NCBI GenBank assembly: GCA_947568835.1
Contig: OX387603.1
Span: 5,182,701-5,246,700, forward strand
Direction of reading: 5' to 3'
DNA: 64,000 bases
Source of the DNA: Protonemura montana
Taxonomy: Eukaryota; Arthropoda; Insecta; Plecoptera; Nemouridae
Positions within the stretch are counted from its first letter, which is position 1. The number at the start of each line of letters is the position of its first letter. The notes under the pieces are model-generated. The model worked only from the letters and a program-made list of their open reading frames with translations, was not told the DNA's origin and made no database searches. Shown piece after piece: positions 25,501 through 56,716 of the stretch. A program made the translations under genes and the position numbers.

Positions 25501-28500
25501 GATGTTTCGTTCCGTGACAGGATGCTTGTTTCGCTCCAAGCAAAGGAGCGGACACTCGCCGTCGCCTCTGTGCTGGACATTCTGTGACAGGGTGCTTGTT
25601 TCGCTCCACGTAAATGAGCCGACACTAACCGTCGCCTCTGTGCTGGACTTTTCGTGACAGGGTGCTTGTTTCGCTCCCCGCAAAGGAGCCGACATTCACA
25701 GTCGCCTCTATGCTGGACATTTCGTGACAGGGCGCTTGTTTCACTCCACGCAAAGGAGCCGACATTCACAGTCGCCTCTATGCTGGACATCTATGACAGT
25801 GCTACTCCTATGTTTAGTTACGAGGCTACTAGTGCATGAAAATAGTGAAAATGTCCTTATAAATTACCCAAGTTAAGAAACACTTTGAGTTTACACTCAA
25901 TAGGTGGGTGACCTCCAAGTCTAGAGGGAATGAAATGACAACAAACACTTCTTCCGTCGTGTTTACCCCAGAATCGCAAAGATTGATGACACGCTTCCAG
26001 TTGTACCGTTCTTTGGAAGGAGCAAACAACGGACAGTCTCCAATGCCACACCAGATCCGTGGGGTCCGATATCAAAACAAAGCTAGTGATATTGCAAGGC
26101 ATCCTCTATCAACTAGGCTTTGAAATTCACTGACGCACATTTACCTAGAAGCGAGCGTACCCCCATCTCTGTCTCTCGTGTTTGCATTCAATTAGACCGT
26201 GGAAACACAACTCAATCTCTGAATGCGTCCTCCCCCTCCCTCGTGCCCCACTCTCTCGTACAGAGTAGAAGGGGGGGGGGGGGGGGGGAGTCGTAGCATC
26301 TGCATTGAAATTAAAAAACTTCCCGCCGTTTTCAACCAGAGCCGCTTTTGTGTGGTGGTACTACTGATGTAGAGGGCTGCGTCGCGTCGGGAGCGAGTGA
26401 CTGTGAAAGTTTTTACAAAATTCTTGCTACGAATTTGTGCGGTGGTAGAGATATAATTTTTTTATTTTTTTTTTTTCTGAAATGAACACACTTCAAAACG
26501 TCTTATGACTAAAAAATATTCAAGGGGCAAATAAGTTGTTGAAATTGTGTTCTTGTACCTACGGCGACGTAAAGCCCTCCAACCAATTATTTCAGAAATG
26601 GGAATAATAATATTAATAATCGATATTTTGAATGGTAAGTTCTTCAACAAAAAATCACCGTCACCGTCGCTGTAAGCGCCAGCAACTTTCAGAAAATGCA
26701 TAAAAAACTATTTCATGTGATTGGCCGTTTTGTGACATTATATCGTACATACATGCGTCAACTACTAAAATAAACGACTGCTTTTGCTATGTAGAGATAT
26801 TTGTTGCTTTACTCTAAAAGTGTTTTTAACATAACCATAGCTATTGTGAATATTTCCCCTGGTAAGACGGCCATGCAAGCAGATGGCCACTCACACCCTA
26901 AGCAAGACTCTCTTTTCCACCGCCGCCGTTCTCTGCCTGAATGAGGAGATCCACAAGGCGCATCCAGTGCGCTCTTGAAACTTTAAGCCCGCATTCCACT
27001 AGAGTTGCAGTCGACCGGCTCACGGCCCTCTTGGCCCACACATTCACCCGTGAGAGCTAATGTAACAAAATCATCCAGTGGGCTGTGGAGCGGGCCCGAC
27101 AGCCAAGTGGAATACAGGCTTTATTGAATTTGCCGTGGCGGTCGGGAACACCGCCCCCGTCGGATGCTGTGGTTGGTCTTTGTACCACTGGAGACCACGA
27201 TCCGTGTGCACTGGCGTTACCTGATTCCCGTGTTGTTATAGATTATTTAGAGTTAAATTTGTAAGTTTTATTTATGACGGAAATGGTCCGATTGCTTGTT
27301 ACGGTTACCACTGGAGGGAATATAAACAATTATTATGTTTGGTAACTTATGGTGGATGGAGAGATTGGTTTATTTTAGTTAAAACAGACTCTATTTCACG
27401 ATTAAACTTAAAATCGCACACCAACACCATTAGGGTTTGGTTATATGTACCAGTACCGCAATAGGTTAAATATAATTATTAAAAACCAAATATAAGCGAA
27501 AGTATATAGACATATCATATTTATGGCTATTTGGATGATTCCAAATTATCGGAACTGATCTTTTATAAATCAGATCTACATAAAATATAAATAAATCTAC
27601 GATCTTATATTTAGAAGCAACTTCTCACTAGCCATCTGCTTGGTATTTTTGACATTATAAAGGGAGCCAGACTGCAAACATGTGTGATACACAAAAGTGA
27701 ACATATCACAAGGATCACTCACTACACATCCCAACCAAATTGTTAAGGTCACACAAGACAGAAAAAAAAAACCTGGTTACCTTTTTGGATGAAATCTTAA
27801 TTAAATTGCAAACGCTTGCTATGCGCGGGGTATTTTATTATTATGAACACTAAAACCATCTCAACAATTGATGCCCAAACGGGGTTTCCTTTTGGGCACC
27901 AATTTTTGCGACGGTTTTAGTGTTCATAATCATAAAAGACCTGGTTACCGTTAACATCAAAAGTCGAGGATTACCCACGTTTATTTATTAAATAAATAAA
28001 GGTTGCAGCCCTGCAGAGGAACGAGGGCTGTAGCGCACACAAATTAGATTGTACTGGCTCGATCGTTCATCACCGTGGCAGCGACTTCATTCCATTGTCT
28101 TCCTTCTTTTCCTCATCCACTTCCTACGTCACCCACGGCAAACAAAGCCTTCGCTTTTTTACTTAATATTCACGTAGCTCCATCAGATGTCGCCCCATAC
28201 GAATTTTGTTTTTGTATTGTTTACGTTCTATTTGCATGTTGCTGTCGTAGAAACAACTCATGCCGTTGTTGATCTACCTGCAGCATTCAACCCCCAGTGC
28301 CTAAACCTACTCTTGTTTCGATCGCCCTTGCCGTCGCTTCTGTGCTAGACATTCTGTGACAGGGTGCTTGTTTCACTCCACGCAAAGGAGCGGACACTTG
28401 CCGTCGCCTCTGTGCTGGGCATTCCGTGACAGGGTGCTTGTTTCGTTCCACGCAAAGCAGCGGACACTCGCCGTCGCTTCTGTGCTGGACATTCTGTGAC

Positions 28501-31500
28501 AGGGTGCTTGTTTTGCTCTACGCAAAGGAGCGGACACTTGCCGTCGCCTCTGTGCTGGGCATTCCGTGACAGGGTGCTTGTTTCGCTCCACGCGAAGGAG
28601 CGGACACTCGCCGTCACCTCTGTGCTGGGCATTCCGTGACAGGGTGCTTGTTTCGCTCCACGCAAAGGAGCGGACACTCGCCGTCGCTTCTGTGCTGGAC
28701 ATTCTGTGACAGGGTGCTTGTTTTGCTCTACGCAAAGGAGCGGACACTTGCCGTCGCTTCTGTGCTGGGCATTCCGTGACAGGGTGCTTGTTTCGCTCCA
28801 CGCGAAGGAGCGGACACTCGCCGTCGCCTCTGTGCTGGACATTCCGTGACAGGGCGCTTGCTTCGCTCCACGCAAAGGAGCGGACACTCGCCGTCGCCTC
28901 TGTGCTGGACATTCCGTGACAGGGTGCTTGTTTCGCTCCACGCAAAGCAGCGGACACTCGCCGTCGCCTCTGTGCTGGACATTCCATGACAGGGTGCTTG
29001 TTTCGCTCCAAGCAAAGGAGTGGACACTCGCCGTCGCTTCTGTGCTAGACATTCCGTGACAGGGTGCTTTTTCTTGTTTCGAATTTGAAGTGATTGCTCG
29101 TAGATCAATGACAGATTTCTTATAACCTGACCAAATACTAGAGATATTGCAGTACAATTTTATTTGTCATCATGTATTTACCGTTGATTATCCAGCACAT
29201 GCATAAGTCTTCATTTTTTCACATCCTTGCTGGAAGCAAATTAAGCGTCGGTTTAGGAACTTTAACAACTAGAAATTGCCTTGCGTCTGTTTTTCTCTAA
29301 CACAATCAACTCTAGTAAATGGATTTTTGTCTCGTCTTTTTCTAAAACGACTAAATGAAATGATATTATGACGACCCCAAGACCACAAAGGCTGAAGTTT
29401 TATAAATTTGCGCTTTATATTCCGTGGGCATTTGCGTTTTGCATTTAATCCTGGTTTAAAGGTACGTAGACTCGCAGCGACGAGCTGAGGAAAAGGTAAG
29501 CGAGATAGTTTTAAATTAGGTCCGCGATCGAGGGAAATCGAGTAGCGAGTCAGTGGCGGCGTGTGCTTGGAAGTGGAAGTCTTGAAGATTTAAGCAATAT
29601 TAGGGATAGATCAGCTAATGTTTTCTGTTTAATGGAACCTTCGAATGCTGAAAAAAAATCTCCCCTCACCGGTTGTCTTTAACCCACAACAATAGAATCA
29701 GACAGAAGGATTCCGAACTTTCCTGATTTGCAATTCTAAACCTTCGCCGCTGCAGCATCACTAAAGAAATTGGATTGATACGAGTTTTCAGATTTAACCT
29801 TAAGATCTAACATTTGGTTTTTTTCCGTCATGATTGCACCAACCGTGTTGAAGAACCGTTAGGGTTCCCCGACATTTGAATTCAGACGAGCTGCAGTCTT
29901 TGTACAGAGAAGACTTTGAAACGTCGGTGCTTCGTAAAAACTACACCACCTTCAAGACATAATATAATCAAAGAAGTATTGACTGCAAAAACCTCTAGTG
30001 TCACATCATGACCAGATCAACAGCAGGTCAAGGCACTCTGCGAACGACACGCTTGCCTCTTTCAAAAGCCTTTTTGCGGCGCTTTTTTTACGCGACTCTC
30101 GAGTGTCGAACCGAGGACCGTCGTCCATGCGAAAACAGACTGGGGAGCTGGGCGATTGTTTGGCTCTCATGGCGTACCAGATAGTTCATATGAGAACAGA
30201 GGAAAAGGAGCCTTGTCATTACAAAGTTTCAAACTTTCGAGAAGCGATCAAGATGAACTATGGGTCCACTTTGTAGTCGTTCCTTCACAAACTGCTAGAA
30301 TCATTTCCTAAAGTGTTGAAAAATTCTGAAAAATGTAGAAGTCAAACGCCATGTATAAAAATGAACACAAAAAGAACCTGTATTTTTTATGAAATCTGAC
30401 ATTTAAAACATTTGCAGACTAGGAATTCTCCAAAAATAATTTAAAAAAAAATCACACTGAGATAAACGCAGTTTAACTTGGTTTTTGAAAGTGAAGCAAC
30501 GTTTCGGATTTCAGCACTTATTTAGAAGCTATGACAAAAGATAGGAAAACTAATTTTCTACAAAATATAGTCAACACCTTTCCCTAGGTTGTGTAGTCAA
30601 AAGCAGGTCATTCTGAGCCAAGGAATGTTCCCTGGAATTATTTCCTTCGCCCTCTGCATTGTTTTTTGTGGCAAAAACCACTAAAAACACGGCCTTGGAT
30701 CGAGATAGAAAAGAATTTAATACCACTTGACACTTGGAATGTTTTGATCGATTTGTGGTGCAAATTTTCAATTACCTGGTGATAGGATTTTATGTCAACT
30801 AATTGACATTTTTATTTATCCTACATTACCAATACCTGCACGTAACTCGAACCTAGTCTAAAGATCTCTGTCGTCAAGTCTAGACTTGCTATGCATGTAT
30901 GTATGTGTCTTTATGTGTCTGTAAACCTTCATATATTTATGTTATTCTTCATTCTTTATAAACCACATTCTTTATTCTCAATATCTTAACTTCGTCGCCT
31001 TGACGAGATTCTCTGCAACGCTCTTTGGGATTGGTAGGCAAGAAAATCGAAGCACCTGCGTCAACCAATCATCACGACTCTAATAAAATGGTAAACTGTA
31101 TGATGGTTTTTAGACTCATGTCTACTTTATTTATCCTTAGCACTAGTTTTAACAAAAACTATTTGAAATGGGGTAAAGAACAACTAAATTTCCCGACGTT
31201 TCGTAACATGTACTAGTTACTTCTTCAAGGGTGAGAGCTTTTCAATAGATTTTGTTAAAATGGTAAACCGTTTGAGTCCACCTTGTTAAAATCGTCACCG
31301 AAATCGAGTGCGCAAAGCTAAATAAACAGTGGATTGGGAAAAGAATGGCTAACAGACAGGCGTCGGCGAGTGTCCGCTGCTTTGCGTGGAGCGAATCTGG
31401 AAGCGGTCTAGGCGTCTCAGTTCCGAATCGCCGAATTCCGAAAACTCAAGATCCACGCAAAGTCTGTGCAGACGTATCGATGACGTCACCGTGGGATGAC

Positions 31501-34500
31501 GAGGTTATCAAAATATTCAACACGTTGTCGATCGCCGGTTTTTTTGACAGTTTTTGCGATGGCCAGCTGTCGAGGCGACGGGCTTCAGATTTTTAAAAGC
31601 GCGCGTTCAATTTTTAATCTGATTCATTTGACCATTTCTCTCTTCGCCGTTTCCGTTCATCGCCGTTGACCGTTTCACGCCGGAACTTGAATAGGTTTTG
31701 AACATTGTGTTTATTTAGTTATTTTTTTTCTTTTCCCAATAACAAAAAATAACGTCTTCTGGTTTAAACCACTATATTTAATTAACTTAACCGTAATACT
31801 GTGTTTTTTTTAACGTCTCCATTTGCCCTTTCCAAGCTGGGTTTCCTCATGCTTTCATTGAACAAAACAAGTGCTTCGGGGACAGAAGAAAACTTTGTGT
31901 CAAAAGACTCTGAAAAAGATGTTCCCGCTTCAGTTAGTCTTTTCCTTCCCTCTCAATTTTCCAGGAATATCATAAAACCATCTGGTATATTTGTTTATGT
32001 TCCTTGATGTTTGCTCGGAGCGGGAAAAGCGAGGACTAAATCGTGTCCCTCGAATTGAAAAGGTTGCCGAGCAAACGTCCCTGCAGGCCAGCGCGCGGCG
32101 GTGGTCTAACTAGCTTCGGAAACAAACAGAACCGGCGAACGCTAGAAAATGTATTTCTGCTTTTTGGTCGGCGTCTACCTGAGCGATATGTTTACCGAGT
32201 TCGAATCACGGGGGGACTGGTGTTATTGACAGAAGAAATATCATTTGGACGATGTCAATAAACGATCATGGATTGGCGTGGAAAAGACCGCTGCTATACC
32301 AACATGCGTTTCACAGAGTATTTTGGAAAATATTTCTGTGTTTGCGTCGTTTTATTGAAATATAAATATTTATTTTTCAGTTTGATAAATTTTATTTAAA
32401 ATTTCTTTGCACACAATCGTAAACGGCATCTTATTTTAAATTCACCGTGCCCTAAAAAAGGTGAAGCACGACTTTACTTAACTGTTCTAGTTTTGCTAAT
32501 GACATAGTTTGACTCGGTATAACTCGACTTGCACCCTACGGGCGTTGTTTGACTTATTCTTTTTCGGTTCCTTGTCTTAGTCTCCCTAGTCTTGAGACTG
32601 TCTTCTTCGTTGCTATTAAATAATTCAACAGCAAAGAAGACCACCCGAGGCACGTTCGGCAAACACTCGGCTAATAGACCTGCGGCCCACTGCTCCACCT
32701 GCAACTTGACTTCTCTAGGAAACTATCTTCAGAGTGGCCCATCGAAAAGCACTTGATTTGAAACTTCCAGCGGCCACACGATAACGAAACGCAATCACAT
32801 AATCTACGACGCAGCCGGTGTTTCACTCGTATCTGAACGTGGTCAGAACGTAAATAGCTGTGCAATTATTGTTTACCACATAATACCGTTAATAACTTCA
32901 GTGGATTTGCGGTGATCGATAACCCTCAATTAAACCGACTCTAACCGCATTTTGCTGGATATCAGCTCAGACTTAATGGTTGGGTTTACAGGTTTTACTG
33001 TAAATTCGTTATTTTCTGTGGTGGCCAGTCACAAAGAACTGGACGTGGACAAACTTTAGCAGTGACTTTAAGATGACTCTCACGATGGTTCAATGGTTCA
33101 ATTGCCTTGCATCTCAACTGTCCACGAAGATTACGACTGTTCATTTTAGGTCCATTAACCTTGCCCCTCCTTAACTGAGTATTAAGCCAGAGCTCTCTTA
33201 GTTCTCTGATCCCAACAAAATTTAGAATATTTGAAATCTTATTTAAATTGCAGACGCTTGCAATGTGAGGGGTATTTTATTATTATGAACATTACTGCCG
33301 TCTCAAAAATGGATGTCCAAACGGGGACTCGAACCCCGATCTCCACCTATTGCATCTATCGCACAGATCGGGGTTCGAGTCCCCTTTTGGCATAATTTTT
33401 TGAGACGGTAGCATAATGATTTTAAAAAAATTATTGTTTTCCTATAGTATTATTATCAACACTATAACCGTTTCAAAAATTAATGCATCAATTTTTGAGA
33501 CGGTTATACTGTTGATAATAATAAAATAACCCGCGCATTGCAAGCGTTTGCAATTTTAATCAGATTTCATCTTAAGTTTTCCTATATCTTCCACGAAAAA
33601 ATAAGTAAAAAGTTTTGGAGAGGTTAGAGTTCAACATGAGGATTAATTTTCAGACAATCTACTAATTGGTGCTCAAGACTACTTGCTAAACTCCCAAGGA
33701 TCAACTGTTGAATTGGCGAATCGTTGATGAGCAGGCTTCATAACGGCACCTTATTCATCCTCGCCTCCCTTTCAGACATGGAAAATGTTGACCTATTAAC
33801 AAATTTTGTTTCTCCTTGTTTCAGCTGTCCTACGCTGATACGCACCCGATGTTTACCCCGCGACACTTCCCGAACTTCTTTCGGGTAGTTCCGTCCGAAA
33901 ACGCATTCAACCTGCCGCGTCTGAAGCTCCTCGAGGCCTTCAACTGGACTCGGGTCGGCACGATCTACCAGAACGAACCGCGCTACTCGCTGGTAGGAAC
34001 TGGAGTCACTTCTATCTTCTAGCAGATTCAGTTGCTGTTAGACAGGAAGTAGTAGTAATAGTAGAGTAGTTAGAGCAGTAATTGTTTGGTCTGGCACTTG
34101 ATGAAAACTTTTGGCTGGCGCAGCCATGATTCAGGTAGTTCAGATTAAGATAGTACTTCAGGCTACCACCATCTAGCTGGGAAACCTATTTCCAAGCTAA
34201 ATCTTAATGAAAAACGAGAAAATATAATTTTCTTAATTATTAGAATTTCATAAAATATTCTATCATTATGACGTAAAGAGCTCGACAAATCCTTCAAATT
34301 CGGTTTCACATAAGAAAAAATTAAACATAGACGCAAATAAATATTCTGAAAAATGTTTCTACAGTTTTGAATTACTTTTATTTCTGCAAGCTCCAGCGGT
34401 CTAGAGAATTAAAAAAAAAAAAAAACTCTGTTGAAATTGATAATTATAATTTTTTTTAAACTTCAATAAAGATGTAATCACCATTGCTCACATAAACGCA

Positions 34501-37500
34501 AAGCAAGCTATAGAGCTAAGATTATCTGGGTGATAGCCGGCAAGACTTCAGGAGCTAGAACAACCCTTTTTACCACCTGTCTCGGCCAAGCTTTTAATGG
34601 AAGACTACCAACTGCGCACGGGGTGCTAAAGGTCACGCCAGGCCAACTTAACCCGCGACCTCTACGGCCTCCCTTAAGGCTCTAATGTCGATGTAATCCA
34701 ACACTCCCCCTTCCAGTAGCCGGTAGCGCTGTTCGACAGGTACGGGTTAATGAGTGGTGCTCTGTTACCAAGGGAATAATCAGCCCACGACCTTTCGCCT
34801 TGATCCCACATGTCTGTGCTAATCCCTTTTCGGGCAAGGGGTCCCTCGACCGCTGTCGGACTCAGATTGGGTTGTTTGTTGTAAGATACTGTATCATGAA
34901 AAAGAGAAAAACGTTAAAAACGTTAAAATTGGCGTCATGGAGAATTTAAAAAGCTTAGGTTGAGTTGTATCACTCTTTTTGGATGTGTTTGAAGTTGCTA
35001 GGTAAGCGACTGGATAAAGGAAAGTTAAAATTGGTGCGGACTACATTGAAAGTTCTATTTGCAAACTATTTAAACGAGGAAAAAATAATCGGAAGTAACC
35101 AGACGATTAGTTTTGGTTACACCTTCTATCGCAATACGTTCTTGTTCCGGTTTTATCAATCCTGTACCAAGAATAACACAACGCAACCCACAATTTACTA
35201 TTTTTAATCATTTTTAAACTCGATTTCTTATCTCTTTTATGGTAACGAAGCCACACAGTAGTGTATATGATGACTTTGATGAGGTTCTAATGAGCTTATA
35301 CCTTGTTGAGTAATAAACAAGAAGAAATAAACAAAAGGAACAGGTGTGCAGCTAGAACTATGATTTGATAGTTGATACTTTTAACCGTTTTAAAACGACA
35401 CATAGCTCCCGACCTAACCACCCTCCGCCTTGTCTCTTCGTGCGCAGGCGCACAATCACCTGGTGGCGGACCTGGACACCGTGGGCTTCGAGATAGCTGA
35501 GACCCAGAGCTTCGGCAACGAGGTCGTCACGGCCATGTCGAAGCTCAAGCAGAAGGACGTTCGCATCATCTTGGGCAACTTCAACGAGTCGTGGGCTCGC
35601 CGTGTCTTTTGCGAAGCCCACAGGTAACATGCGCGTTACGTTTATCTTGGTAGCGCCCGGTAATCATGGTGGTAACATCCTGTTATTGTGGTAGTGACCC
35701 CCGGTAAGCATGGTGGTAGCCCCCGGTAACTGATAGTAACATCCGTTTCTGGTGGTATATCTGGTTCTGCTGGTGTACCTGGTGGTGTAACCCTCGATAA
35801 TTGGATGGTAACCATCGGTAACTGGTGGTGTCCCACGTTAACTTGTGGTAACCGAATAGTACATGGTAACCCCTGGTGACTGGAGGTATCTAAGTCATGT
35901 TTGTCAGAAGCCCCCTGTATCCAGTGGTTTAAAAGCTCTAAAACGTCTGACTTGGTGGATACAGGATCCAGAAAGGAGGCCAAGGACACCCTTAGGGACG
36001 ATTCTGGGTTGGTTCACTTTTTTGGGAAATAACTGTAAGTTTTGCAGCGTCTTTACGTGACCGTGGAAATTCCCGGCGCCCATAAGAAAAGGAAATTACC
36101 AAGAAGCTCGGTGTCTGGAAGCTTGTTATGACTTAGGTATCGGTGTTCGTATAGGTTTGATTGCCCTGAGACCCGGGTAGTGGGAAAATAAGGAATTCCC
36201 GAGAGACGGTTCTGAGAGGAATTTTGCGAGCACAAAATAACTCCGACATTGCTTACAGAGTGGGCATGTTCGGACGGAAGTACCAGTGGCTGATCATGGG
36301 CACGTACGCCGACCAGTGGTGGGCGGCTGAAGAAGGGGTAGTCCCGTGCGCGCCCAACGAGCTTCAGGCGGCGCTGGAGGGATGCATTCTCACCGATCTG
36401 TTGCCGCTGTCTACCTCTGGAGAGATCACCGTCTCTGGCATTGTGAGTGGACTCTGCTTATAATACTCTCGATCTTGAAAAGTATTAGTTTGTTCCTTTC
36501 CGGAGAGAGGCAATGTTTTTGTCTCGACCCGAATGTCTCGACTATATACTGCTTATTTTAGCGAAAAAAAATAGACCTCGGTGAATTAAAGCAGTCCCTT
36601 TTCATGGTTCTGTATGCCCAGTGTCATTTATGATGCATATGTTTACAGTTGAGTAGTACCAACTTTCAGTTTGGGATTTTCGCAGCTATATATCATCGCA
36701 AGTTTTTATAAATAGTAATGACGGTCAAGGTAAATGTCAAATGTGAGCTCGCATTAAATATCGAAACTTGTCAGTTATTGTCAGTTATGGAAGGTTTTAT
36801 CAACCAAATTTTAAGCTGAAAATCTCGTTTCCCACGCATTTCATCTGTTCGGTTGTGAGTTTCGCGTCCCAAGCCGCCCCTCACCCTCACTGCCGACAAA
36901 CGCTCCCATTCCATCTCTCTAGCGACACCTGTCATCATTGCTATTGACAGCTTACCTGTCATCAGAGACTCACAAGGGTTATTAGCCCCGCATGCAACAA
37001 GTTTCGGTGACTTTTTGATATAGGTTTGCAAAACCGCCGCTAGTTTCGCTCCGTTTATCGAGTGGCATACAGGAGCGCGGTTATACCGTTGAGTGTACAG
37101 GTTATAGGTAGCTAGGCAGAACGTTAATGTTACACTTTCTGCGTGAAAGATGGCCGCCAAATGACTACTTTACTGATAAAAATGCAGAGTACCAGAACAC
37201 CCCGTTAAGTGGAGCCACTGTCGTATGAAATTTAATTTCAGTATTTCTCGTAGGCTTACTCGCTTTTGAGACTTTTCACTCTCAAAAGATCTCCATCAAT
37301 GTTTATACCTTAACGATTAATATATACACGTAACGACATTCAAAAGCGAGTAACGACCATGAAGGTGCAGGCCATTATACGATCCAATGGAAAGCATGAA
37401 AATCCGCCAATTTATTTGAATTATAAAATACATGAGTTTGAACTTTGAATTATGAAAAATCACTCATCTATAGCCTTGCTTTTCAAACATATTACAGAGT

Positions 37501-40500
37501 TTTAAAAATTTGTAAATTTGTCTAGAAATCCTCTGATTTCACAAATCTTTTTTAAATGGTAGCTGTACCAATTTTTAAGACCTAAGAGCATTCTCCATAT
37601 AAAATTTAAACTTCATTTAAAATGAGAGTAAAATACCCGGAACAAGCATTGAACCTGTAGGTAAGTGTTAAATTTAGCACATCCTATAATAGAGTGGGTT
37701 CCATCCCGTCCGGATCCCTACTTAGCGAGGTCCCCCATTTGACATCGGTACTTAACTAGCCACCGAGTTCCTGATTTTCCCATAAGAAGATTTTCCATTC
37801 CCATTGGCGATAGATTGAGGACACATTTTAAAGCCACGGTTCCTAGTTTGGCAAGGGACTGAGCCCCACTTGACTTCTCCGACTCCCCTCACAGACCGCC
37901 GATGAGTACCTGGCCGAGTACGACTCCCGGCGTGGCGGCGAGTACTCTCGCTTCCACGGGTATACGTACGACGGCATCTGGGCGGTGGCACTCGCCATCC
38001 AGCATGTGGCGCGTCGGGTGCGCGTTCACCGGAAGAACGCCACCGTCGCCGACTTCCGGTATCGGGACCCGTTGTGGGAGACGCTGTTCTTGGAGGCGCT
38101 GAGAAACACCAGCTTCGAGGGTGTCACGGTAATGGAAACTTTCATGCAGTCCGCTTTCTGACGTTCTATTGGTGGTGGCATTTGAATATGGAAAACGAAG
38201 TTTGTGTCTGGATTCAAGATTAGATGGCCAAAGCATTTCAAAGCTTTGGGACTCCAGAGCTTTCACTTAACGTTTTGAAAAAAAAAACCTCTTCAAGATT
38301 AAAATGAGGCTAGTTGCAATTTGTATGAAGAATTCTTTGAATTTCGTGTTTCAATCAGTAGATCAATAACAAAATAGGGAATCCTTTCGAAATAAGTGTC
38401 GTATTCCCCAAGGCGATGAATGTAGTTGAATCTGTGACAGTAAATCAATGACATCTTCGAGGGCTACAATTTACCGAAGATTTCAAACATATTCAAGTAC
38501 AAATTTTGTCTGTTCCAGGGCCCAGTGCGTTTCTATGACAACGAACGCAAAGCCAGCATCCTTCTCAAGCAGTTTCAAAGTAAGCAACAAGCTTACTTTC
38601 AATATCTTTCTACTTTAGCTTCAATAAATGTTCCTGCGTTGATTTTATGTAGAGTAGGTATGTAGAGTATGTCAAGGTGTGTTTCCAGCAAGCCCATGCT
38701 GGAAACAGCACGGTTTTTACACAAACTTTGACCACTTATTGTCGTGGGTAATTTATCTTCTATTTGCTACTTAGCAAAAAAATGCAGTGCCTACTGTACT
38801 GGTTATTGTCTACTTATAGGTAATAGGCACCAAAATTATTCACAGTGAGTGCCAATTAAATCTTAACAAAACCGACAAGATTAGGTTAGTTTTGAAACTG
38901 TTCTGTTCATTAAACTGTTATGTTTTTGGAACTGAAACTGTTTTTTTCTGCGCAAGTTTTGAAACTTTGTACTAATCTTGCGTTAACCAATCAAACCAGA
39001 GGCCTCGGTCTTGGTTCCCTTTATCAGTGGATGTATTGTATAACGGATACCCAGTATATACAATGAGACGTCTGTACGTTGCCCTGCAGACGGCAGCGAG
39101 ATCAAGGTGGGCGAGTTCAACGGGGTGACCGGCCAGCTGGACTTGACCCGTGGCGGGCCGATCCGCTGGCAGGGTCGTCACCCCCCTAAAGACCGCACGC
39201 GGCATATCTACGAGCACTCCCACGTCAACGTGACAATCTACGCGAGCATCGCGGCCACAGCCAGTGTCGGCATCGTCATAGCGGCCGTGTTCCTAGGCGT
39301 CAACATCCGCTTCCGGAACCAGCGGTACATCAAGATGTCGAGTCCGTATCTCAACAATCTCATCATAGTCGGGTAGGTGGTATAATGGTTATTTTGTTGA
39401 GGGCGATCATGTTAAAGTATTAACGTAACAGTCCTGATCCACACACTAGCTACGTACAAAACATGACTAGCGTGATTATAAAAATAACTGTAACAAAAGT
39501 GTAGTACTGCTCTTGAAAGGTTTTCTGTACTGAAATACTCTTTTTGAGCTTATATTTAATTACGTATATCTATTTGATTAATTAACACACAGTTTTAAAA
39601 AAAGTAAGCGTTAAGTTTGGTAAGATAATGGAAGAATAATAAAACATAAAACAATAGATTATTCAGTACATTTCTGTTTTACTGAAGTAATGTTGAGAGT
39701 AGAAATATTATTTTAAAGGTTTTTTTTCAATACCACTTTGTACCAGCTGGCTTGTTCACACAAAAACAGCAAAACAATTAGCCATGTTCTGGTGTAAAAC
39801 AGAAAAAGATAAAAAAAATGTAATTTTGTAATTACTTGAAAATGCGCCGTGCGCATGACACTATTTGTGGTTCCCTTCCAACAGATGCATGCTGACCTAC
39901 TCAAGCGTGCTGTTCCTGGGTCTGGACAGCACGCTGACCTCCATAGACTCGTTCCCGTACATCTGCACGGCCAGGGCGTGGCTCCTGATGGCGGGCTTCT
40001 CCCTCGCCTTCGGCTCTATGTTCTCCAAGACCTGGCGAGTGCACTCCATCTTCACCGACGTCTCACTCAACAAGAAGGTAGCCACAAATTTGACATTGAC
40101 ATTGTTTTTTTCAATTTTGTTTCAATTTGGGAGTTAGTTACGTTGCCGCCTGCTATTATTGAAGTCCTTTTTCAGTATTATGATGTTTACATGTCTACTT
40201 TATCTAATCTTAGCATTAGTTTTGAAAAAATATATATATTTTTTTTAATTCTATGTAAAACAACTCATTTTCTCGGTGTTTTGCAACTTATGTCTTTCAT
40301 TTCATCAAGGGTGAAAGCAATTGTGACTTTTTGCCAATAATTTAAAAACTCAAACAAATTTAAAATTTTTTAAAAAAATGTCTAGGCACCCTTAGTTTGG
40401 GTTTTACCAACATTTTCATGAGCTCAGGATCCTTTCCCCCACGTTTACAAACGTCATTGGAGAATCGATCTTCACTGCCGAGCTCAGATAGTTCTCTAAG

Positions 40501-43500
40501 ACTGTGTGCCCACAAGTATAAGAAGACCATCCTTGTGCCCTGTTTGTCATTTGCTGTACCCCAATGAAAAGTAAACTGCGCTAAATGTGTGACAAAATAC
40601 ACCAAAAACTTTATTGCTCAACTATTAACTGAACGAGAAATAACAAAGAACATAACTTTTTCCAGATTCATCTAGCTGTAATAAAAGTCAAGCTATTTAT
40701 GTTTCTTTCAGAGAAAATCCCTGAGATGCCTTTCAACCTTCCAAGATCCGGTTATAAAAATGACCATAAACCATCAAACGCTTTCTTTTAGCTCTTTTAT
40801 TCTTTCAACGACCAGTCCACCAAACTTCTGCACATCCCATAACGGCACGCCAGATGAACTTAACTAGCTTTGGGTGCTTGTCTACACAGATCATCAAGGA
40901 CTACCAGCTGTTCATGGTCGTGGGCATCCTGCTCTTCGTCGACTTGGCAATCATGACTACGTGGCAGGTGGCCGACCCGTTCTACCGCGAGACGAAGCAG
41001 ATGGAAGCATACGTAAGCATTTCACATTTTCATTTGGATTAGCAACCAATGGCTTGCCTTTTACTTTAGTAACCTGGCAACTGCCTTTGTAGAGGTTTCA
41101 ACCTTCAATAATCTACATAGAAGTCTTAGTCTTCTTTTCTGTGCGGTTCTGTTTTATTGACGCTATGGCGTACACCATAGAAGCTGTATGCGTTCTTACT
41201 TGGATGGATGGATTTTTCTTGCTGCAAAGGTGTATAATTTTCCGCGGACCTAACTAACACAATGTGATGTTTTCAGCCGCACCCATCGAGCGAAGACATC
41301 ATGATCGTCCCGGAGAACGAGTACTGTGCTTCGGAGCTGATGACCATCTTCGTTGGATCGATCTACGCGTACAAGGGCCTGCTTATGGTGAGTTCCAACA
41401 TCCAAGGGCTGGCGATTTTGTAACACAATCAGGGGAGATGGGTGAGGTAGGGTGCTTTCTCAAAAAAGTACAATAAAGACCTGAATGCATTTGACTAGTG
41501 AAATGTTACAGTACTTTCACTGCCTGCTTCCTGACCCTTTCTGCTGCTGTCCTTCATTAAGTTTTACCAACGAGAGTGGCGTTGCAGACTTGAAATATGG
41601 GCCATCTTTGCTTCCCAAATTGTGTGGCATATTACAAGTGGACATCATTGAAATTGAATGGATGCGGGCGGACAGGACGCAAAGAGAATTGCTGAAACGT
41701 TTTTTCTTAAGAAAAAAATGGTGGACTAAATGAAAAGGTTTCTTCTGATTTATGTTATTGCCTATTGGATAGCCAGACATTGTTGTATTTTTTCATTTAG
41801 GAAACTTTATTGGATGTTTTTATAAAAAAAATCTCCTGCTTATGAAAGGCACTAATGCATTTCTTTGCTCCCATCTTAAAGATCTTTGGTGCATTCCTTG
41901 CGTGGGAGACGCGGAACGTGAACATCCCGGCGTTGAACGACAGCAAGTACGTCGGCATGTCGGTCTACAACGTGGTCATCATGTGCGTGATGGGCGCCGC
42001 CGTCTCCTTCGTGTTGAGCGACAAGCAGGACGCCAGCTTCGTGCTTATCTCAGTGTTCATCATCTTCTGTACCACCGGCACCCTCTGCCTCGTCTTCGTG
42101 CCAAAGGTGGGTCCAGTTCATGGTGTCAAGACTACATCCCGTGGGCATCGCTCCACTATTACGTTAGGAAAACATATAAAAACCTGCTCTAAGGTCGTTT
42201 TTAAATAAATTTTTCTGCATATGAAGGTAAATTTGCCGTCGCTAGTATTTTTGTGCCATGTCCTAATAAAGACTCAACTAATTGATGCTTGCTTTTAACG
42301 ATTATACCCGGTATACACTTTCAATGCGCTTGATTTAAGAGTTAAAGTGTCTTATCGGTTGGTATTTAATTTCTATTGGCTGACAAATGTCACCACTTGG
42401 TAATGCTGGCGTACTGACAGCAAAACCCAGCTTGATCCCTCTTCTAACTTATCTTCCTGCCATGCCAGCTGGTGGAGCTACGACGCAACCCGCACGGCTC
42501 AATAGACAAGCGCTGTCGCGCCACGTTACGACCAGTCTCTAAAACACGGCGCGACTCGGCTGCGCACGAGGCAGAGCTGCGCCTGCGCGACGCCAAGTCC
42601 GGCAACGCGGCGCTGCGCGCCCAGCTTGCCGGCAAGGACGCTGAGCTGGCGGCGTTGTTGCGGCGGCTCGGCGACGAGGCAGACGGCGGAGCAGACAGGC
42701 TGCAAGTGCCGAGCCTGTTGCGCAGGGAAGGTATGTCGAACATTTTTCGACTATCTTCTAGATATGTCTGAATTAATTAGGATCAGACTGCATGCCAAGG
42801 TGCATGCTTGGCAATGCCAAGATGTTTCACTAATATCAACAACTTCTTCTCATTTGATTTTTCCAACTTTTGCCAATGGTTCCAATGGAACAAATACCAG
42901 TGTATTGATCGACTACCACAGTGATGTATTGGTCAATGCACGCGGGTGTACGCAGTCCACCCACTATTAATTTTATTTTTGGCCGTACCCCCACTTTGAA
43001 TTTTTGAGGGAACGCAGGTGAACGCACGGGAACGCAGTATTAAATTATGATTATTCGAAATATCCTGCACTTCTTTATTTTCAAGGCGAAAATATCCCAG
43101 TTAAGGGTTTCATTTCTAATAACTTACTTATAAAAATATACCTACGAAGAATGCCACTGTAGCGAACGTACTAAGAGTAGGTAGGCTGGAACTATGTCGG
43201 CGTCGCGACTCGCATCAAAGGGGTAAGTTAGAACCATATTACTGTTATCACGTAGGGAAGTCGGTAGTTGCTTTCGCGGCGTCGCACGGCGGTGCAAGCT
43301 CTCAGAAGCAAGCCCGCTTCAAATAATAAGAATTCGCAGGAAAGACAAAAATACAAACAATAACAAAATGCCACATACGAGCCACACTGGACGAGTTAGT
43401 TCAATTCAAGATGCAGAAGAGGAAGCAAGTGGATTTGCGATCCCTTTGGGGCCTTGCTCCTTCTAAAAAACAAAAATTTGGTTTGGTAAAAGTTGAAGAC

Positions 43501-46500
43501 ACCGCCAACGTCAACGTCAACGTTGAAGACACCACCAACGTCAACGTCAATGCTGAAGACACCACCAACGTCAACGTCAATGCTGAAGACACCACCAACG
43601 TCAACGTCAATGCTGAAGACACCACCAACGTCAACGTCAACGCTGAAGACACCACCAACGTCAACGTCAACGTTGGAGTCGACACCAACATCGAAGTCAA
43701 CGTCAACGCTTCTGATTTGGAAGGTGGCACGTCGTCGTCGGATAGTGGAAGCGTTCCCGGCGCCGAGGCAACGCCAACTTCCTGTCACTGGCCATCGATA
43801 TGGACAGAGAACACATATTTGGAGTTTAAAGAAAAATATCCCTGGATCAGCTGCAAGGATGGGAATCTTGGTAAGCTAAGTTCAATATCTAAATTTGCAG
43901 ATCCGAGCACTAGCGGTATAGCAATTGCTCTTGCTCATAAGCCCCGGCAACGAAGCTTTTGACCCGAACAAATTGCAAGAGTTCTGAAAGGCACTTTTAT
44001 TCAGAAAAATTCGATGATCAAGAACAAGGTCGAGAAAAGATTTCTGATAAGAAATTGTCTTAATTTCCTTTTTAATCCAAATTAAGCTAATTTGTATTTA
44101 TTATTTTTTGATTTTTTGACTCACCAAAATGATCAAGAGGTACCAAAACTATGCAAATTACCGCAAGCAATTTTACAAAAATAGGCACTACCTATAAACA
44201 AGTCGTACAAAATTTGATTACTTTTCGATTAATTCGAATTCAATCAAACGCTCGCAACTCCAAAACTATACAAGATAGCGATCAGGTCAACATTTACGAG
44301 TGTGTTAGGAATGAATCAAGACCGAACGGTTTGTCGTGTTGGAAACACCGGTTCTCATGAGATCACCGAAGTTAAGCAACACTGCGCTGGGTCAGGTATT
44401 GGATGGGTGACCACCATACACATGACCAGTTCTGTTCGGGAGAGGCTGGAGGGATGAAAGTTAAGCAACACTGCGCTGAGTCAGGTATTGGATGGGTGAC
44501 CGTCATACACATGACCAGTTCTGTTCGGAAGAGTTCGGCGAGATAGGTCGGCGGTACTTTATATCGGCTCACTTCGAGTGAATTCTTAAATAGGTACCTA
44601 CTACATATAGGTTAATTAAAAAATATGTGTGTCTGACAGTACATTTTATATTTTGCAGGATGTTTACAGTGCAGCCAAATAAATATGGCAGCGGATAATA
44701 ACTTGCTAGTGTTCACAAAGCAAGGCGTTTATCTCTCAGAAGAGTGGGTGAAATACCGAATTAATGAGGGAGAAAGCTCAAAGCTTACTTCTCGTCAAGC
44801 GTCATTGAGGAAAAAGATTAAAAAGCACCGCGAATCGTCTGCCCACAGCATAGCAGGCAGCCTGTTGTTATCAAAAAAGAAGAAGATAATTGAAACAGGA
44901 TTAGCAGCACATGCGGCAATCACGGATGTAGCATCGGGAAATATATTTCGCACGGCCTATTACATGGCAAAAAAGAATCGACCGTTCTCCGATCATGAAT
45001 CCTTGGTCGAGCTGCAAGAGATGAACGGTGCTAACATGGGGGGGATCCTACATTCGAGATTCTCAGCCACCAACATCATTCACCACGTAGCGAGCGACAT
45101 GCGGAAGAAAATTGTCGAAGACATCGTTTCCTCCAATTCGAAAATAGCAGTACTTATAGACGAAGCCACCACTGTCAGTCATAAGTCTGTAATGACAGTG
45201 AACATCAAGGCAGCTGTCGGAGGAAGCATCGAACCGGTGTTCATATTCCTTGATATGGTAGAACTGCAATCGCAAAATGCAGCTGATATAAAAAAGGATT
45301 TGGTGCAATGCTTAAAAAGGCACGGATTTCACGAGAGTTTTTTGCAAGAAAACTGGATAGCGTTTGCGTCTGATGGTGCTAGTGTGATGTTTGGAAAGAA
45401 AAATGGTGTTGCTAAATTAATAACGGATGAATACAGTAGAGTGTTTACTTGGCACTGCTTAAACCACAGACTAGAGTTGGCTGTTAGTGATTGTACTAAA
45501 GACGTTTCGGCTGTAAATCACTTCCAATCTTTTATGGACGCCCTTTACACGACATATAGCCAATCGAGTAAAAATCAACGTGAACTCCGCCAAGCGTCAT
45601 TGGAACTCGAGTCAGAAATTCTGAAGATCGGGCGCGTTTTGGATGTTCGCTGGGTAGCGAGCAGCTTCCGATCGGTGAGTGCTGTTTGGAAAACCTATGC
45701 TGCTCTGCATAGCCATTTTAAATCAGCTTCTGAAGATGCAAGTCGTGAAGATAAATCGCGGAAGAAGTTTAAAGGGCTGTATCTGCGACTGGGAAGCCCA
45801 GAATTCTTGATGGATCTGGCGCTGTTTTGTGACGTTTTAGAAGAGCTTTCTTCGTTGTCACTGAAGCTTCAATCAAGATCAGTTACAATTTTGAAGTCAG
45901 AAAAGTTCATCCAGACAACGATTCGTGTTATCGGAACGTTTAAAGATGATCCCGGCCACCACATGCTTCAAGCGAACGACGCAATAAAAAACAAACTTTT
46001 CAAAGGTGTTGAGCTGCACCAGAACCCAAAAATTGCTCGAATGAATCACAAACAATTTTTGCAGAGTCTTTGCGACAACTTACGGCAGAGACTATGCACG
46101 ACAAATAATGAAAAAAACAACAAAACAATTTCTGACTTGGCCGTTTTGGACCAAGGGAATTGGCCCGCTCAGCCAAATCTCAGCATTCGGCACGGAGAAG
46201 AAGAGATCCGGCGGCTGTGTATTCAGTTCAACCTGAATGCGAAAAAATCCATTTCCGGGATGAGGGAGCTAATCGAACAGGTTTTGGAAAATTCAGATGC
46301 GACAAGGAAACTTGCGCCTGTTCCCGCCGACCTTATCCCGCTTTACACTTGCATGAAGACCTTGCCGTGCAGCACTGCTGAGTGCGAGAGAATGTTCAGC
46401 TTAATGAATATCGTGTGCAGTGATCTGCGAAATAGATTGCTGGTGACGAACATCGCAAATGTAATATTTATCAACATAAATGGTCCCCCCGTAAAGATGT

Positions 46501-49500
46501 GGAAACCAGAGCCCTACGTAAAGACGTGGGCAGTAAATCATCGACGTGCGGATGACACAAAATCAAAGACAGTCGCATCACGCAGCAGCAAGGAGCCCAA
46601 TGAAAAAGAGTCACTGTGGAAACTAGTGTAATCTCCTCAACGCGAAAGTAGGGGAGGAGGGGTCTAGTTGTCTCAAAATCTATCTATGCGTGCAAATCTT
46701 CTAGAAAATTGAAGTTATTCTTATGTTATATTTTTGTTAATGATTAATACACATTTGGTTATAATGTGAATTTTTTTGCGATTTATTAGACCGTAAGTTG
46801 AATTGTTATGTCTCTTAGTTGACCTAAAAATGTTTTAGACTTTTAACCCCACGTGTGGGTCAAGTTGTCTCACACACTGAGGCTAGTTGTCTCGGTGAGA
46901 AATTTCGTCATGTGATCATATAATTAATTTAATTAAAATCTGCATCAGTTACTTTATGACAATACCGAGTCAATGTTCGATAATTTATGTAAAAATATTT
47001 TGCCACTTTTTCTTGCAACACAAATTGAGCAGCGCGTAACATGACATCGGGTGCTACCAGCCACTGATAAGATTTTTTTATAATCTCATAATTGGTAATT
47101 TTTGTTAATTGGTTCTGTAAAAAGTAGAAAAAACAATCAATTACTTACAAAACAAACAAAATGAACTTGAAAGCTTCTTCTGGGGTTATGTCATTCTGTG
47201 ACAACTAGACCCATCATAGACTTTCAGCTTTACATTTAAAATTAATATAAATCTCGTGCATAAATTCATCATATAAGAAAAATTATAAACAGGCAATATG
47301 TTTGCTTAAAAGAATATAAAAATACGCATTCAATTAGATGGATATTTGTATTATTATTATTATTAATATTTATTTATTCTCATACTCAGGCATGGTACAT
47401 GTTCTATGATTGCCGGTTGTATGGTGTCCGGTTAGTGTAAAGTTTTACAATGAAATTATCTAAGTTATTTGAAGTTAGCTACGTTATTAGCAGGACTAGT
47501 CTTTCGAATTATTCCGTCTTTGATTTTCTTTCAACCGGCGTCTAAATTCCTTTGCGATCTTGGGGAAGGGGACTTTACGTAAAATATGAAATAACTTAGC
47601 AACAGAAAAGTTACTAACCACCTGTCAAAACAAACAATCTCTTCCAGTAGTCTGAATTATGCACCGAAACGAATTAAATTTTCAAAATAGTAAGATATTT
47701 AGACGTCGAAGCTGTCCGGATCAGTATTTTGCTTCTGGTAACATTTGGAGTCGAGATTTTAACACTAAGCCAACCAGCCCCTGAGACTTTTTGACCCCTT
47801 CTCCCCTACCTATCTATGGATAGTTTCAACAAAAATTAAAACCAGTATTCGATTAAAATGATTGACTTTCTTTTACCAAATTTCCGAATCCCCACCAAAT
47901 TTCAAGACTGCAACAATGTAGGAAGGTGTAGACATGAGAGGGCAGCATTAATTTAATTTTCTCAAAATCATTACGTAATTAAAAATGCAGTTCTGACCAT
48001 GTCCTTTCAAGCCCAATTTCATCGTAAACTCGTAGATTGACTCCAAAAGAAACCTTAGAAGAAAAATTCACTTGGAGCTGCGCCCGAAGCCCCCTATTTC
48101 CCACTCTAATATTTCGCCTTGAGTCTCCTCCCCCCCCCCCCCCCCCCACACAACCACCGACACAAAATGGGTCATTTTTGCGTACCCCCACTAAAAATTT
48201 TACGAATACATCACTGGACTACCATGAAGCAAAGTCTTAGAATCGCCCCACTGAATCAGTCTGCACGGAATTACGGAATTATACTGGAGCGCTGTGCATG
48301 CCAAACCGTTGAACTTAGAGTTTTTTATTTCCATTTAACACATTAAATGTTTTGATACAAAATGGGTGAAAAATATGATTTAAAAAATAAAAACTTCTAT
48401 TATGAGAAGAAATACGATACAATTGCAAGTTTCAATTCAAGGTATAACCTGTTTTCTGTATTTAATCAGGGATTTTTCTTTGCAATTTTAAATGAAGTAT
48501 CAGCTAGAATGATGCATAATTGTCTTTCGAAAATGTAAATAATGTGTTTAAACTGCGAAGCATTTGCATTAGCTACCTAGTATACTTTTTTTTCTTTTGG
48601 CTAACACAGTTTAAATGAATGTTGTACGATTTGTTAAATTTACTTAAGAAAGCAGCGCTGAGGTTTAATCGGTCGTGGCTTGTTCCAGCAGCGCCAAGCG
48701 GAACGGAGACGACGGACGTGAGCTCCCTGTGCTCGTTGACGTCATCACAGGACGGCGGCGACTACGTGAACCTCGCGGTCGACACGCCCCAGAGGTAAGT
48801 TTCCCTACCAGGACACACCAGAAATAAAGACAGCCCATTGTGGCCGGAAAGCACAATAATTTCAATTACGGGCACGATCTTAGTTTATAAATAAATAAGT
48901 TTAAACACTTATCTTCTATTGGTACTGCAACAATAAAATGGAAAATGAGGAAGATGTAACCCTCATTAGGTTGATCCCATATAATCTTTACCCCAGCTAA
49001 GCGATGGACATCATACCTTTAATTATGAAATTATGCTGGTCCTTATCAGAATTTTCTCATAGTCACTCTTTAACAGTAACAATGGTCACAGCTATCCAAT
49101 CAAGTTATTTCCCATTTTGGCTATTTCCAGATTGTTATCCCATTGAGTTATCATTCATAAAAAAATGCTTACCTCTTGGTTCTGATTGTTTTGACAGAGT
49201 GAAGAAGGCGGTGTTTGCTGGTAAGCAGTCGGCCTTGGCAGTTTCTGCAGCGCGAGAAATCGCCGCTTTGGTGGGCGGTGCCATAGACTCTGAGGACCGC
49301 CCACGCATGGCCACGCCACCCACGCAACAGCAGCCGCTCGTTAAGGTGCGTGTCTTCGACCAAAGGAGGTTTGCTGTCCCCCTGGTTTCGGAAATACTGG
49401 AAAGCAAGCCAGACAAAAGAAGACCATACTGTTATTCACGTGGCACGGTATTCGCGTCAATCATTTGCAAATTTGGTCTTGTTAGGCCCATATCCAGTAA

Positions 49501-52500
49501 CAGTGAAATATTAACGCAGGAACAGGGAATGCCAGTGCTTGGAACATTTCTTATGCAGACAGCATTGACTGTTGACAGCTACACCTGCAGGTGGCAAGGT
49601 GGCATCTAGTTCATTCTCCGCTCTCTATACATTTGGCTGATTTTGCCATCGACCTGTCATCAACTCACAATCTATTGTTAAGCTTACCGCAATGTCAGCA
49701 AAAATCTTTTACCACACTCAACGCTTTTACCCTCCGTTCCTTCGCAGGTGGTATCTTTCGGCGACGTGACAGATACAAGCGCTCCTATCCTGCTCCCGCC
49801 GCGTCAGTTCATACCTCGGGTGCCATCGGCCTCCGTCGGCTGCGTTCGGCACGGAGCCACGCCTCCTACCACCCCATCACGGCCGCACGACAACGCGGCC
49901 ATGTCACAACGCCGCGAAGACGGCAACGTCATCTCGTACAGGGAAGACAAGAACATGACGGGGTACAGGGACGACGGCAACGTAACTTCGTATCGCGACG
50001 ACGTGATCAAGACGCCGTACAGAGACGGCATCACGATCGGCATGTACAGGGACGAGATGAACAACACGGCGTATCGTGACGACATGACGATGGGGACGTT
50101 TCACGAAGACTTTGCCGTGGTCCCGGGGAGGGGCGACGTTTCTATGACGACGTGTCGGAAGGACGGGAGGCGGCGGTCCAGTTTCAAGGCGTCGCCGCCG
50201 TCGTCGGCGCAGCGCAGGACAAGCGTCCCGTGTTGTCATGCCAACCAGGTACATGTCCACTTTCGTTGTAAAACTTTGCCTGGTCATTTTTTTCTGTCTG
50301 TGCGAATCATGGAGCTACAGATCTGAGTTGTTTATGTAATTTTTTTCACAATCTACCACCGGTTGCAGTGGCGAATCCATGTGGCTGGTTCCTGATTCAG
50401 TTTTTTTCTTGAGTATCTATGATACTGACCAAACAGACCATGACACTGATCTTCAGGTTTCCTGTTAAAATCTAAAAAACATAATTTTCAGCTGGAGACA
50501 GCTTCCAGTTTGTTCTAACTCTTTCTTTGCTGGTAGATACTTCCTGGGAGTCGGCGGGGAGACGCTGGTCTGCGTGGCCTGGACCGTCGAGACCTGGCGG
50601 ATCTGGCCGCTAGACAGAGAGACAGGATGGCCGCCCTGGATGGCGGGGACCTGCTGCTCTCCTCGCTAGTGCGGCACTCACCCAGGGACCTCGGTAGGCT
50701 ATCACCAAGCACCATTATATTGTGTCTTCTAGAGTACTTTAGTTGGAGTACTTATGCCAGATAGATAGAAAGGCAGATAGACCTCAGAACATCGATTTAT
50801 ATGTTGTGCAAGTTTTTGTGGCGTGGCGGGTGGGGTCGAGAAAATGCTCTGTGTTAATCGACGAGTAATTTTTCCTAAGCTTCCAAGCCAAAAAAGAAAC
50901 GGCATCATTGATCATATTTGCTTGGGGTTGTGGCAAAGGATAAATATTTTGATTATATTTGACAGAACTACGGAACATAAATAAGTTAGAAATTGAATTA
51001 AATTAGGTAAATTAGGTATCTAGCGGCAAAATTGGAGTTATTTGAGTTTGACAGGTTGTGACGTGGTATAGCGTCACTAGAATCAGAGTGACTGTGAGTA
51101 TTCACAGCCTCTTGGTTCTACTCCTAGGAGATTCGTCATTCTCATCAAATACACCAAAATCGTCTCAAAAAGCCAGTGTCCAAGTAGCTCAATTGTTCAG
51201 AGCAACACCCGCGAAAGGTGGAGATCGGGGTTCGAGTCCGCGTTTGGGCATCAATTTTTAAGACGGTTATAGTGTTGTTAACAATAAAATACCCCGCGCA
51301 TTGCAAGCGTTTGCAATTTAAATAAGATTTCATCCTAAGAATGTAATCGAATGTTTCTCTACTCTCCGCAGATCGCGACTCGGCGTCGATGCAGAGGTCG
51401 GTATCAGCCAAGACAGGCCGCGCGGCGACTCAGCAACGACGCCGACGGCACGCGCAGTCGACGCCCGACGTCGCTCACCCCGCGGCCTCGGTGTCATCCC
51501 TCTGCGCTGCCACGTCCGAGGGCGAGCTGCTCGACCTCGCGATCCTGCCCATCTTCCAGAAGCTGCTGGCTGAGAGGTCGGTGCCAAACACGTCATCATT
51601 TTGTATGGTTTTTAGACTCATGTCTACTTGATTTACTCATCATTTTCTAGTCATTTTATTTCATTTTATTTCATTTCATTTCATATTTATTTTTATTACA
51701 TCATTTCATCTACGTCATCATTTTCATAGCCCATCATCTTTGAAAAAGAAATATTTCTTTATAATTAGCATCAAACTTTGAGAGGGTAGTAGAGTTCCTC
51801 ATAATAGAATACTTCGCGCATTGCAAGCGTTTGGTATTTAAATCAAATTACTTAAATTACACAATATTTGTTTTCTTTAATTGTGTATTTTCTCGATGAT
51901 GGTCCAAAAATCAGTTGATTTGATATCTCGCTCTTTTGCGTGGTGCTTACATGTGTGAAAGTAGTCAACAGAATGAGATGGAATGAGTCACGAGGTTGAC
52001 TGACGATTACGGTAGTTAAAGTAAGAACAACAATAACATGAATAAAATCATTTTTAGTCGACTTTAAACATTTCTATTAATGGTTTGGTGAAGTGGTTCA
52101 GAGCCGTGGGTGAATGTTGTGGTAAGTAATGGACTCGCTCTGTTGAGATTGACTTGCGGTCCTAAAAAGGACCTAAAAAGTCGACGTTTCGTCGGCGATG
52201 GCGCCGACATCTTCAGGACTGTGTCGAGGCTGCAGGTGTTCGCCGCTTTTATTTTGAAGGTTCCCTTCCCGGTGCTGGTCATTGGGGGTGGTAACTGGCC
52301 AATCAGAGTCCACCCTGGTTTGTGGTTGGTTCGGCTTTGGCTTTTTAGGTTCTTTTTAGGACCGCAAGTCAATCTCAACAGAGCAAGTCCGTTACTTACC
52401 ACAACATTTATATTAATGTCACTGAATGTTTCACCGACTAAAATCACCCAGGACCGAGTTGTGATTGGCTGTGCTTCTCTCCGCAGATTAAAGCGTCGCC

Positions 52501-56492: not shown

Positions 56493-56716
56493 ACCGAACG
56501 GTTTGGCGTGTTGGAAACACCAGTTCTCGTGAGATCACCGACGTTAAGCAACACTGCGCTGGGTCAGGTATTGGATGGGTGACCATCATACACATGATCA
56601 GTTCTGTTCGGGAGAGAGGTTGGAGGAATGAATGTTAGTACAGCAACTTCATTCGCCTTGCTTATCAAACACTCGACTGCATGGATTTGTGAAGGAATCC
56701 TGCTGTTAGAGTTGTA
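56493..56716 (+). mobile_element. 5S-rRNA-type SINE, 3' truncated
   Basis: Complete head from ACCGAACGGTTTGGCGTGTT, with GACGTTAAGCAACACTGCGC and GGATGGGTGACC, then the start of the body up to CCTGCTGTTAGAGTTGTA. It lies exactly where similarity between the inverted arms at 56 kb and 62 kb stops. Confidence 0.88.

Follow-up and report, generated by a model that had tools for sequence, protein, structure and literature searches.

Short interspersed elements (SINEs) are described as dependent on partner long interspersed elements (LINEs; e.g. PMC8010984). Penelope-like elements (PLEs) are reported to insert by a different geometry: with the purified protein of a lizard PLE, both strands of the target are cut and extended, preferably at AT-rich ATT sites, and cDNA begins at a pair of adjacent internal positions of the RNA, which delimit an optional tail and have no homology to the cut DNA (PMC11167929). 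Rotifer PLEs are described as having head-to-head inverted pseudo-long terminal repeats (pLTRs), only one of which bears a tail (31-37 bp in one rotifer), together with partial tandems and target duplications of 8-10 bp (PMC3846280). Here we describe a tRNA-related SINE of the plecopteran insect Protonemura montana, found in a 64,000-nucleotide stretch of contig OX387603.1 (assembly GCA_947568835.1, positions 5,182,701 to 5,246,700; hereafter the window). Many insertions of this SINE carry a head-to-head inverted copy and a tail on one side. Our best reading, to which we assign a probability of about two in three, is that a PLE-type enzyme rather than a LINE mobilises it.

The 22-base core of the SINE's tail matches 5,663 places in the 258-Mb genome at ≤1 mismatch, while the reversed control matches none. 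Arms (5,377) and arms with tail (3,884) were counted genome-wide at differing mismatch limits, so that no fraction can be taken from the two numbers. Head-to-tail copies set the unit length at 331 bp. The family is a tRNA-related, non-autonomous SINE: the reference unit has full matches to both the A box and the B box, the unit is short and dispersed, its insertions are flanked by target duplications, and its copy number is high. These properties are shared with insect tRNA-derived SINEs, from which it differs in that most copies are 5′-inverted, the RNA has two cDNA start sites and partial tandems repeat at 331 bp.

The tRNA-like domain, which by its boxes may serve as the RNA polymerase III promoter, begins at an unusual position, ~165 nt inside the unit. 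It is enclosed by a 21-bp imperfect helix formed by CGTCTCAAAAA and its inverse; across 27 copies, 92% of cells pair in the right register, compared with 29-54% in six other registers. The 5′ domain of the unit is predicted, without a shuffle control, to form a compact fold. Toward the 3′ end, an A-rich site (AATAATAAAAT) occupies positions 272-282 of the reference unit and is followed by a 49-nt tail that holds the hairpin ATTGCAA-GCGT-TTGCAAT. The tail is bounded by the two cDNA start sites: the distal one is the 3′ end of the unit (...CATCCTAA), and the internal one (...AATAAAA) lies 49 nt upstream.

To examine the ends of individual insertions, we took every tail match (≤2 mismatches) in the fetched loci and the window, 113 in all and 111 after removal of a duplicate locus (the rows left out are L001, which lies in the window, and L014, at the same place as L013). 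Since these copies were chosen and oriented by their tail, the strand of the tail is fixed by construction, and what is informative is the position at which the other side starts. An antisense segment lies upstream of the sense part in 77 of the 111 copies and is absent from 27; the remaining 7 are second units of partial head-to-tail tandems. The outer end of the antisense segment falls at unit position 276-288 in 52 of the 77. Adjacent target duplications were found for 45 of 104 copies (tandem second units excluded), compared with 2.5 expected from swapped flanks, and have a median length of 12 bp (range 8-22). Inversion is seen in 39 of these 45 copies, with the outer end at 276-288 in 36; of the six classed as non-inverted, one (L027) has what by eye is a short inverted stub. 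A tail on both sides occurs in none of the validated inverted copies, nor does the other side ever start at the distal site (0/39 for each).

A single duplication encloses both arms in all 39, and arm and counter-arm are therefore one insertion event, as an earlier reading of the window made from the sequence alone (the sequence-only reading) had supposed. We reject chance insertion of neighbours head to head on the join and duplication data. The geometry of neighbours also makes it unlikely: among 100 listed arm sites (exact matches on contig 1, among the matches listed), neighbours within 600 bp were head-to-head in 13 cases, tail-to-tail in 0 and tandem in 4, all four same-strand pairs being spaced 331 bp apart. 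Across 66 sequences totalling 313 kb (the window plus 65 loci, selected in most cases for holding a tail), 111 arm matches comprise 59 tailed arms, 47 untailed inverted partners and 5 orphans.

The sequence-only reading had gone further and proposed a hybrid of SINE and miniature inverted-repeat transposable element (MITE), in which a promoter cassette sits in a foldback element that decays by palindrome rearrangement. The tRNA-related SINE in this proposal holds, and arm and counter-arm do exist and form part of a single insertion. Its foldback part fails on several counts: the inner ends vary widely between copies, the arms are unequal as terminal repeats, with no tail on the other side in 39/39, the duplications vary in length, and each copy's arms belong to its own subfamily. 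Terminal inverted repeats that are complete and end at constant positions, as would define a MITE or foldback element, were not found, and we regard such an origin as highly improbable. Instead, the variable inner ends, the one-sided tail and the single variable-length duplication indicate that the palindromes were made at insertion, which leaves no order of collapse. The four structures that had been ranked as successive states of collapse are all present and have the tail in common, and they are four separate copies whose cDNAs stopped at different points; a duplication was found for two of them.

We next considered how the two arms arise. At its very end, the target strand matches the beginning of the inverted arm over a mean of 2.4 nt, compared with 0.4 nt in the control (n=34; no match in 9/34), and these bases could therefore pair with the A-rich site of the RNA. 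The duplications begin with A in 21/34 and end with T in 29/34, and A prevails at -3 and -2 (25/34 each) and T at +3 and +4 (22 and 20 of 34), a symmetric base preference. The inner ends (antisense end versus sense start) are uncorrelated (rho 0.21, P 0.14, n=52). They cluster at ~220-245 and 105-136 for the antisense end and at ~220-250 for the sense start, a pattern that would fit RNA structure halting two separate cDNAs. Microhomology at the inner junction is weak, and we draw no mechanism from it.

Sequence variants tie the two arms of a copy to each other. Of the 52 copies with an outer end at the peak, 44 were compared (8 with an inner end past position 250 were excluded), and 13 of these had no main triplet type in one or both arms. 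Subfamily triplets, of three main types, agree between the arms in 28 of the other 31, compared with 10.8 expected, and other variants common to both arms number 11, compared with 6.0 among same-class copies (P 0.006). This concordance indicates that both arms derive from one RNA, or from sister RNAs with a common source. Together with the fixed outer end and the uncorrelated inner ends, it indicates that both target ends prime cDNA, and we regard priming from both ends, at two fixed sites of the RNA, as well supported.

Palindromes could also be formed by a single cDNA, or an antisense RNA, that folds back and copies itself, and a self-priming or antisense-RNA route has been proposed for the palindromes of rotifer PLEs (PMC3846280). 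Near-perfect palindromes do exist, for example at window positions 33443-33575, and the inner ends are ≤6 nt apart in 7/52 copies. Such snap-back copying predicts coinciding inner ends, however, and the offset between them (q minus r) ranges between -229 and +213, the two being not significantly correlated. Nor does it account for the fixed position of the outer end beside the target duplication, and we consider it very improbable.

The main rival to a PLE-type enzyme is that a LINE moves the SINE and that the inversions are products of ordinary twin priming (Ostertag and Kazazian), which the built-in A-rich site would make frequent. This would explain the inverted segment, the single target duplication, the T-ending target strands and the pairing at the A-rich site. 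Among human- and chimpanzee-specific insertions, 30.9% of 2,068 L1 copies are reported to be 5′-inverted, relying on microhomology at the 5′ junction (PMC2912911), and these twin-primed copies resemble ours in their 5′ inversion, their one target duplication and a second target end that pairs with the RNA. The inverted element here is a SINE, however, and in the same species-specific set only 1 of 5,554 L1-moved Alu insertions and 4 of 477 SVA insertions are given as 5′-inverted (PMC2912911). Within our own sequences, a 5S-rRNA-derived SINE, whatever partner moves it, occurs on both strands in 0/27 clusters. Classical twin priming makes a simple split of the RNA between the two arms. In contrast, the sense part here begins upstream of position 272 in 47/52 copies, placing RNA upstream of the internal start in both arms, and the second start is fixed within ~12 nt, while L1 is not known to have a fixed one. 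Finally, the one-tail geometry recurs in PLEs of this genome (see below). We therefore judge twin priming by a LINE to be unlikely, though it is the leading alternative.

A PLE query gave 138 matches in this genome. Locus L107 holds an uninterrupted 856-aa frame in which RVT_1 was found, along with what we take, independently of Pfam, to be a GIY-YIG-like motif. Two families could be followed to their ends, which were read by eye. PLE-1 (the L107 family) has two start sites 49-50 nt apart and PLE-3 has two that are 34 nt apart, and the tails in their inverted insertions are likewise 49-50 nt and 34 nt. Exactly one tail is present in 6/6 inverted insertions of these two families with both ends readable; L121/L127 (PLE-1, both ends, no inverted arm) and L109/L113 (inverted outer end unresolved) fall outside this count. 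L116 and L118 were scored as tailed despite incomplete tails. The PLE target duplications are ~10-13 bp long with AT-rich ends (6 cases), and those of the SINE, mostly with A first and T last, resemble them in length and target type.

The SINE is thus like Penelope/Poseidon PLEs with an endonuclease in its head-to-head inverted 5′ copy, one-sided tail, short target duplications, partial tandems, AT-rich cuts and two internal cDNA start sites. It is unlike them in having no reverse transcriptase/endonuclease frame, a tRNA-related body and thousands of copies, and its tail sequence is not common to the PLEs examined. A precedent for a PLE acting in trans on other sequence comes from the rotifer Adineta vaga, in which host genes are reported between Penelope pLTRs, with an inverted pLTR and an 8-bp duplication (PMC3846280). 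Those are single events that use real PLE pLTRs, whereas here a separate SINE family has its own ends.

These data suggest a model in which the SINE RNA carries the two cDNA start sites and a Penelope-like reverse transcriptase/endonuclease would cut both strands of an AT-rich target at points ~12 bp apart. Of the two cut strands, one would prime at the distal site and the other at the internal site, on the same RNA molecule or on a sister RNA of the same source. Each cDNA would extend toward the RNA 5′ end until halted by RNA structure, and host repair would then join the two cDNA ends, giving a head-to-head inverted insertion with the tail on one side. We also lean, by a smaller margin of confidence, toward the broader view that this family no longer depends on LINEs and is sustained by a Penelope-like enzyme, with exactly one tail per insertion. 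If true, SINEs would be served by a second kind of host enzyme, and the thousands of natural products of this SINE would allow the Penelope reaction to be read in its cuts, start spacing, use of both strands and end joining. No such case was found in the part of the literature on SINEs and Penelope elements that we covered, comprising titles and abstract openings with few subscription journals.

Several observations weigh against mobilisation by a PLE. Priming of the SINE looks homology-assisted, unlike that of the lizard PLE. The sense end of PLE-1 lies at or near the internal site in 7/14 readable copies and at or near the distal site in the other 7/14. The search for the SINE's tail in PLEs, which covered parts of three families, gave no match in L102-L107 or L108-L110, and a global comparison of the SINE tail with that of PLE-1 was not significant (P 0.12); the tail was compared with PLE ends only. 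A local comparison of the whole SINE unit with a PLE-1 pLTR did no better than shuffles. The SINE also has no hammerhead motif, unlike PLE-1 and PLE-3, which presumably carry one, as judged by motif; Rfam (E up to 1) reported no hammerhead in L107. Among the SINE copies, the outer end lies outside 276-288 in 25 of the 77 that bear an antisense segment. These may be worn copies, neighbours or tandems, or possibly real exceptions. Four of the 25 start at the distal site (324-331); all four are unvalidated by a duplication and are followed by a tandem unit. Finally, 59/104 copies show no clear adjacent target duplication, and 3/31 arm pairs disagree in their triplet.

The copies within the window illustrate this range of products (Table 1). 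The tRNA-like cloverleaf that the sequence-only reading had placed at 51174, with A and B boxes and framed by CGTCTCAAAAA and its inverse, is borne out by Rfam and by ARAGORN, which calls a tRNA-Ser at 51177-51252; the copy that contains it starts ~155 bp further upstream, near 51019. The paired arms of the inverted copies are 87% complementary at 27829-27882/27888-27941, 88% at 33443-33485/33486-33528, with no gap, and 96% at 33317-33342/33365-33390. In the insertion at 33232-33409, the outer end of the inverted arm is worn, to ~33432 by eye, and no convincing target duplication was found. The tiny insertion at 57187-57210 has ATATCTTATCT at both flanks, by eye.

Table 1. SINE copies in the window, with their parts and target duplications (window coordinates).
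Feature	Position	Strand	Remarks
Near-full-length SINE copy (unit ~11-331)	51019..51339	+	Without inverted arm; no target duplication found
Helix 5′ strand around tRNA-like domain, includes CGTCTCAAAAA	51151..51171	+	Fold and register count
tRNA-like domain, A and B boxes	51178..51250	+	Rfam RF00005, 42.4 bits
Helix 3′ strand around tRNA-like domain	51255..51275	+	Fold and register count
Internal A-rich cDNA start site (AATAATAAAAT in reference unit)	51280..51290	+	Inverted arms elsewhere begin here
49-nt tail	51291..51339	+	One side only in validated inverted insertions
Two-ended insertion	27783..27941	-	Sense 27783-27884, filler 27885-27890, inverted arm 27891-27941
Target duplication adjoining tail of 27783-27941 (CCTGGTTACC core)	27766..27784	.	
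Target duplication adjoining inverted arm of 27783-27941	27934..27952	.	
Two-ended insertion	33443..33575	+	Inverted arm 33443-33484, then sense 33485-33575, gap-free
Target duplication GTTTTCCTATA, 5′ copy, of 33443-33575	33436..33446	.	
Target duplication GTTTTCCTATA, 3′ copy, of 33443-33575	33576..33586	.	
Older two-ended insertion	33232..33409	-	Sense 33232-33353, filler, inverted arm 33365-33409
Old degraded copy of SINE 3′ part	51768..51849	+	78% identical
Tiny ~24-nt insertion	57187..57210	-	Ends at internal start site; without tail

Beyond these copies, arrays of the SINE's tRNA part with a ~52-bp period and without the T arm occur in L010 (upstream of the tail at 1500), L018 and L115/L125, and in L115/L125 a PLE-1 copy is inserted into the array. 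Closely similar PLE-1-like copies lie near the ends of contigs C1, C2, C4, C5 and C11-C16; many of these chromosome-end copies have equal stop-codon counts and perhaps belong to shared subtelomeric duplications.

Other elements were noted alongside. The 5S-rRNA-derived SINE is present in the window at 14602-15001, 44321-44533, 56493-56697 and other places (Rfam RF00001, up to 64 bits), and some of its copies have their 5S parts in tandem repeat. An open frame of 648 aa at 44685-46631 (+), with a remnant of this SINE just upstream, contains a hAT dimerisation domain (PF05699) and probably encodes a hAT-type transposase. At 28345-29157, a minisatellite-like run of ~24-codon repeats (by eye) contains two overlapping open frames. 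Elsewhere in the genome, COX1, which looks arthropod-like, is open when TGA is read as Trp, and a COX1 copy in a large chromosome (G000:C4:5760925-5762262) scores equal to that of the small contig C34, being either a mitochondrial segment recently copied into the nucleus or an artefact of assembly.

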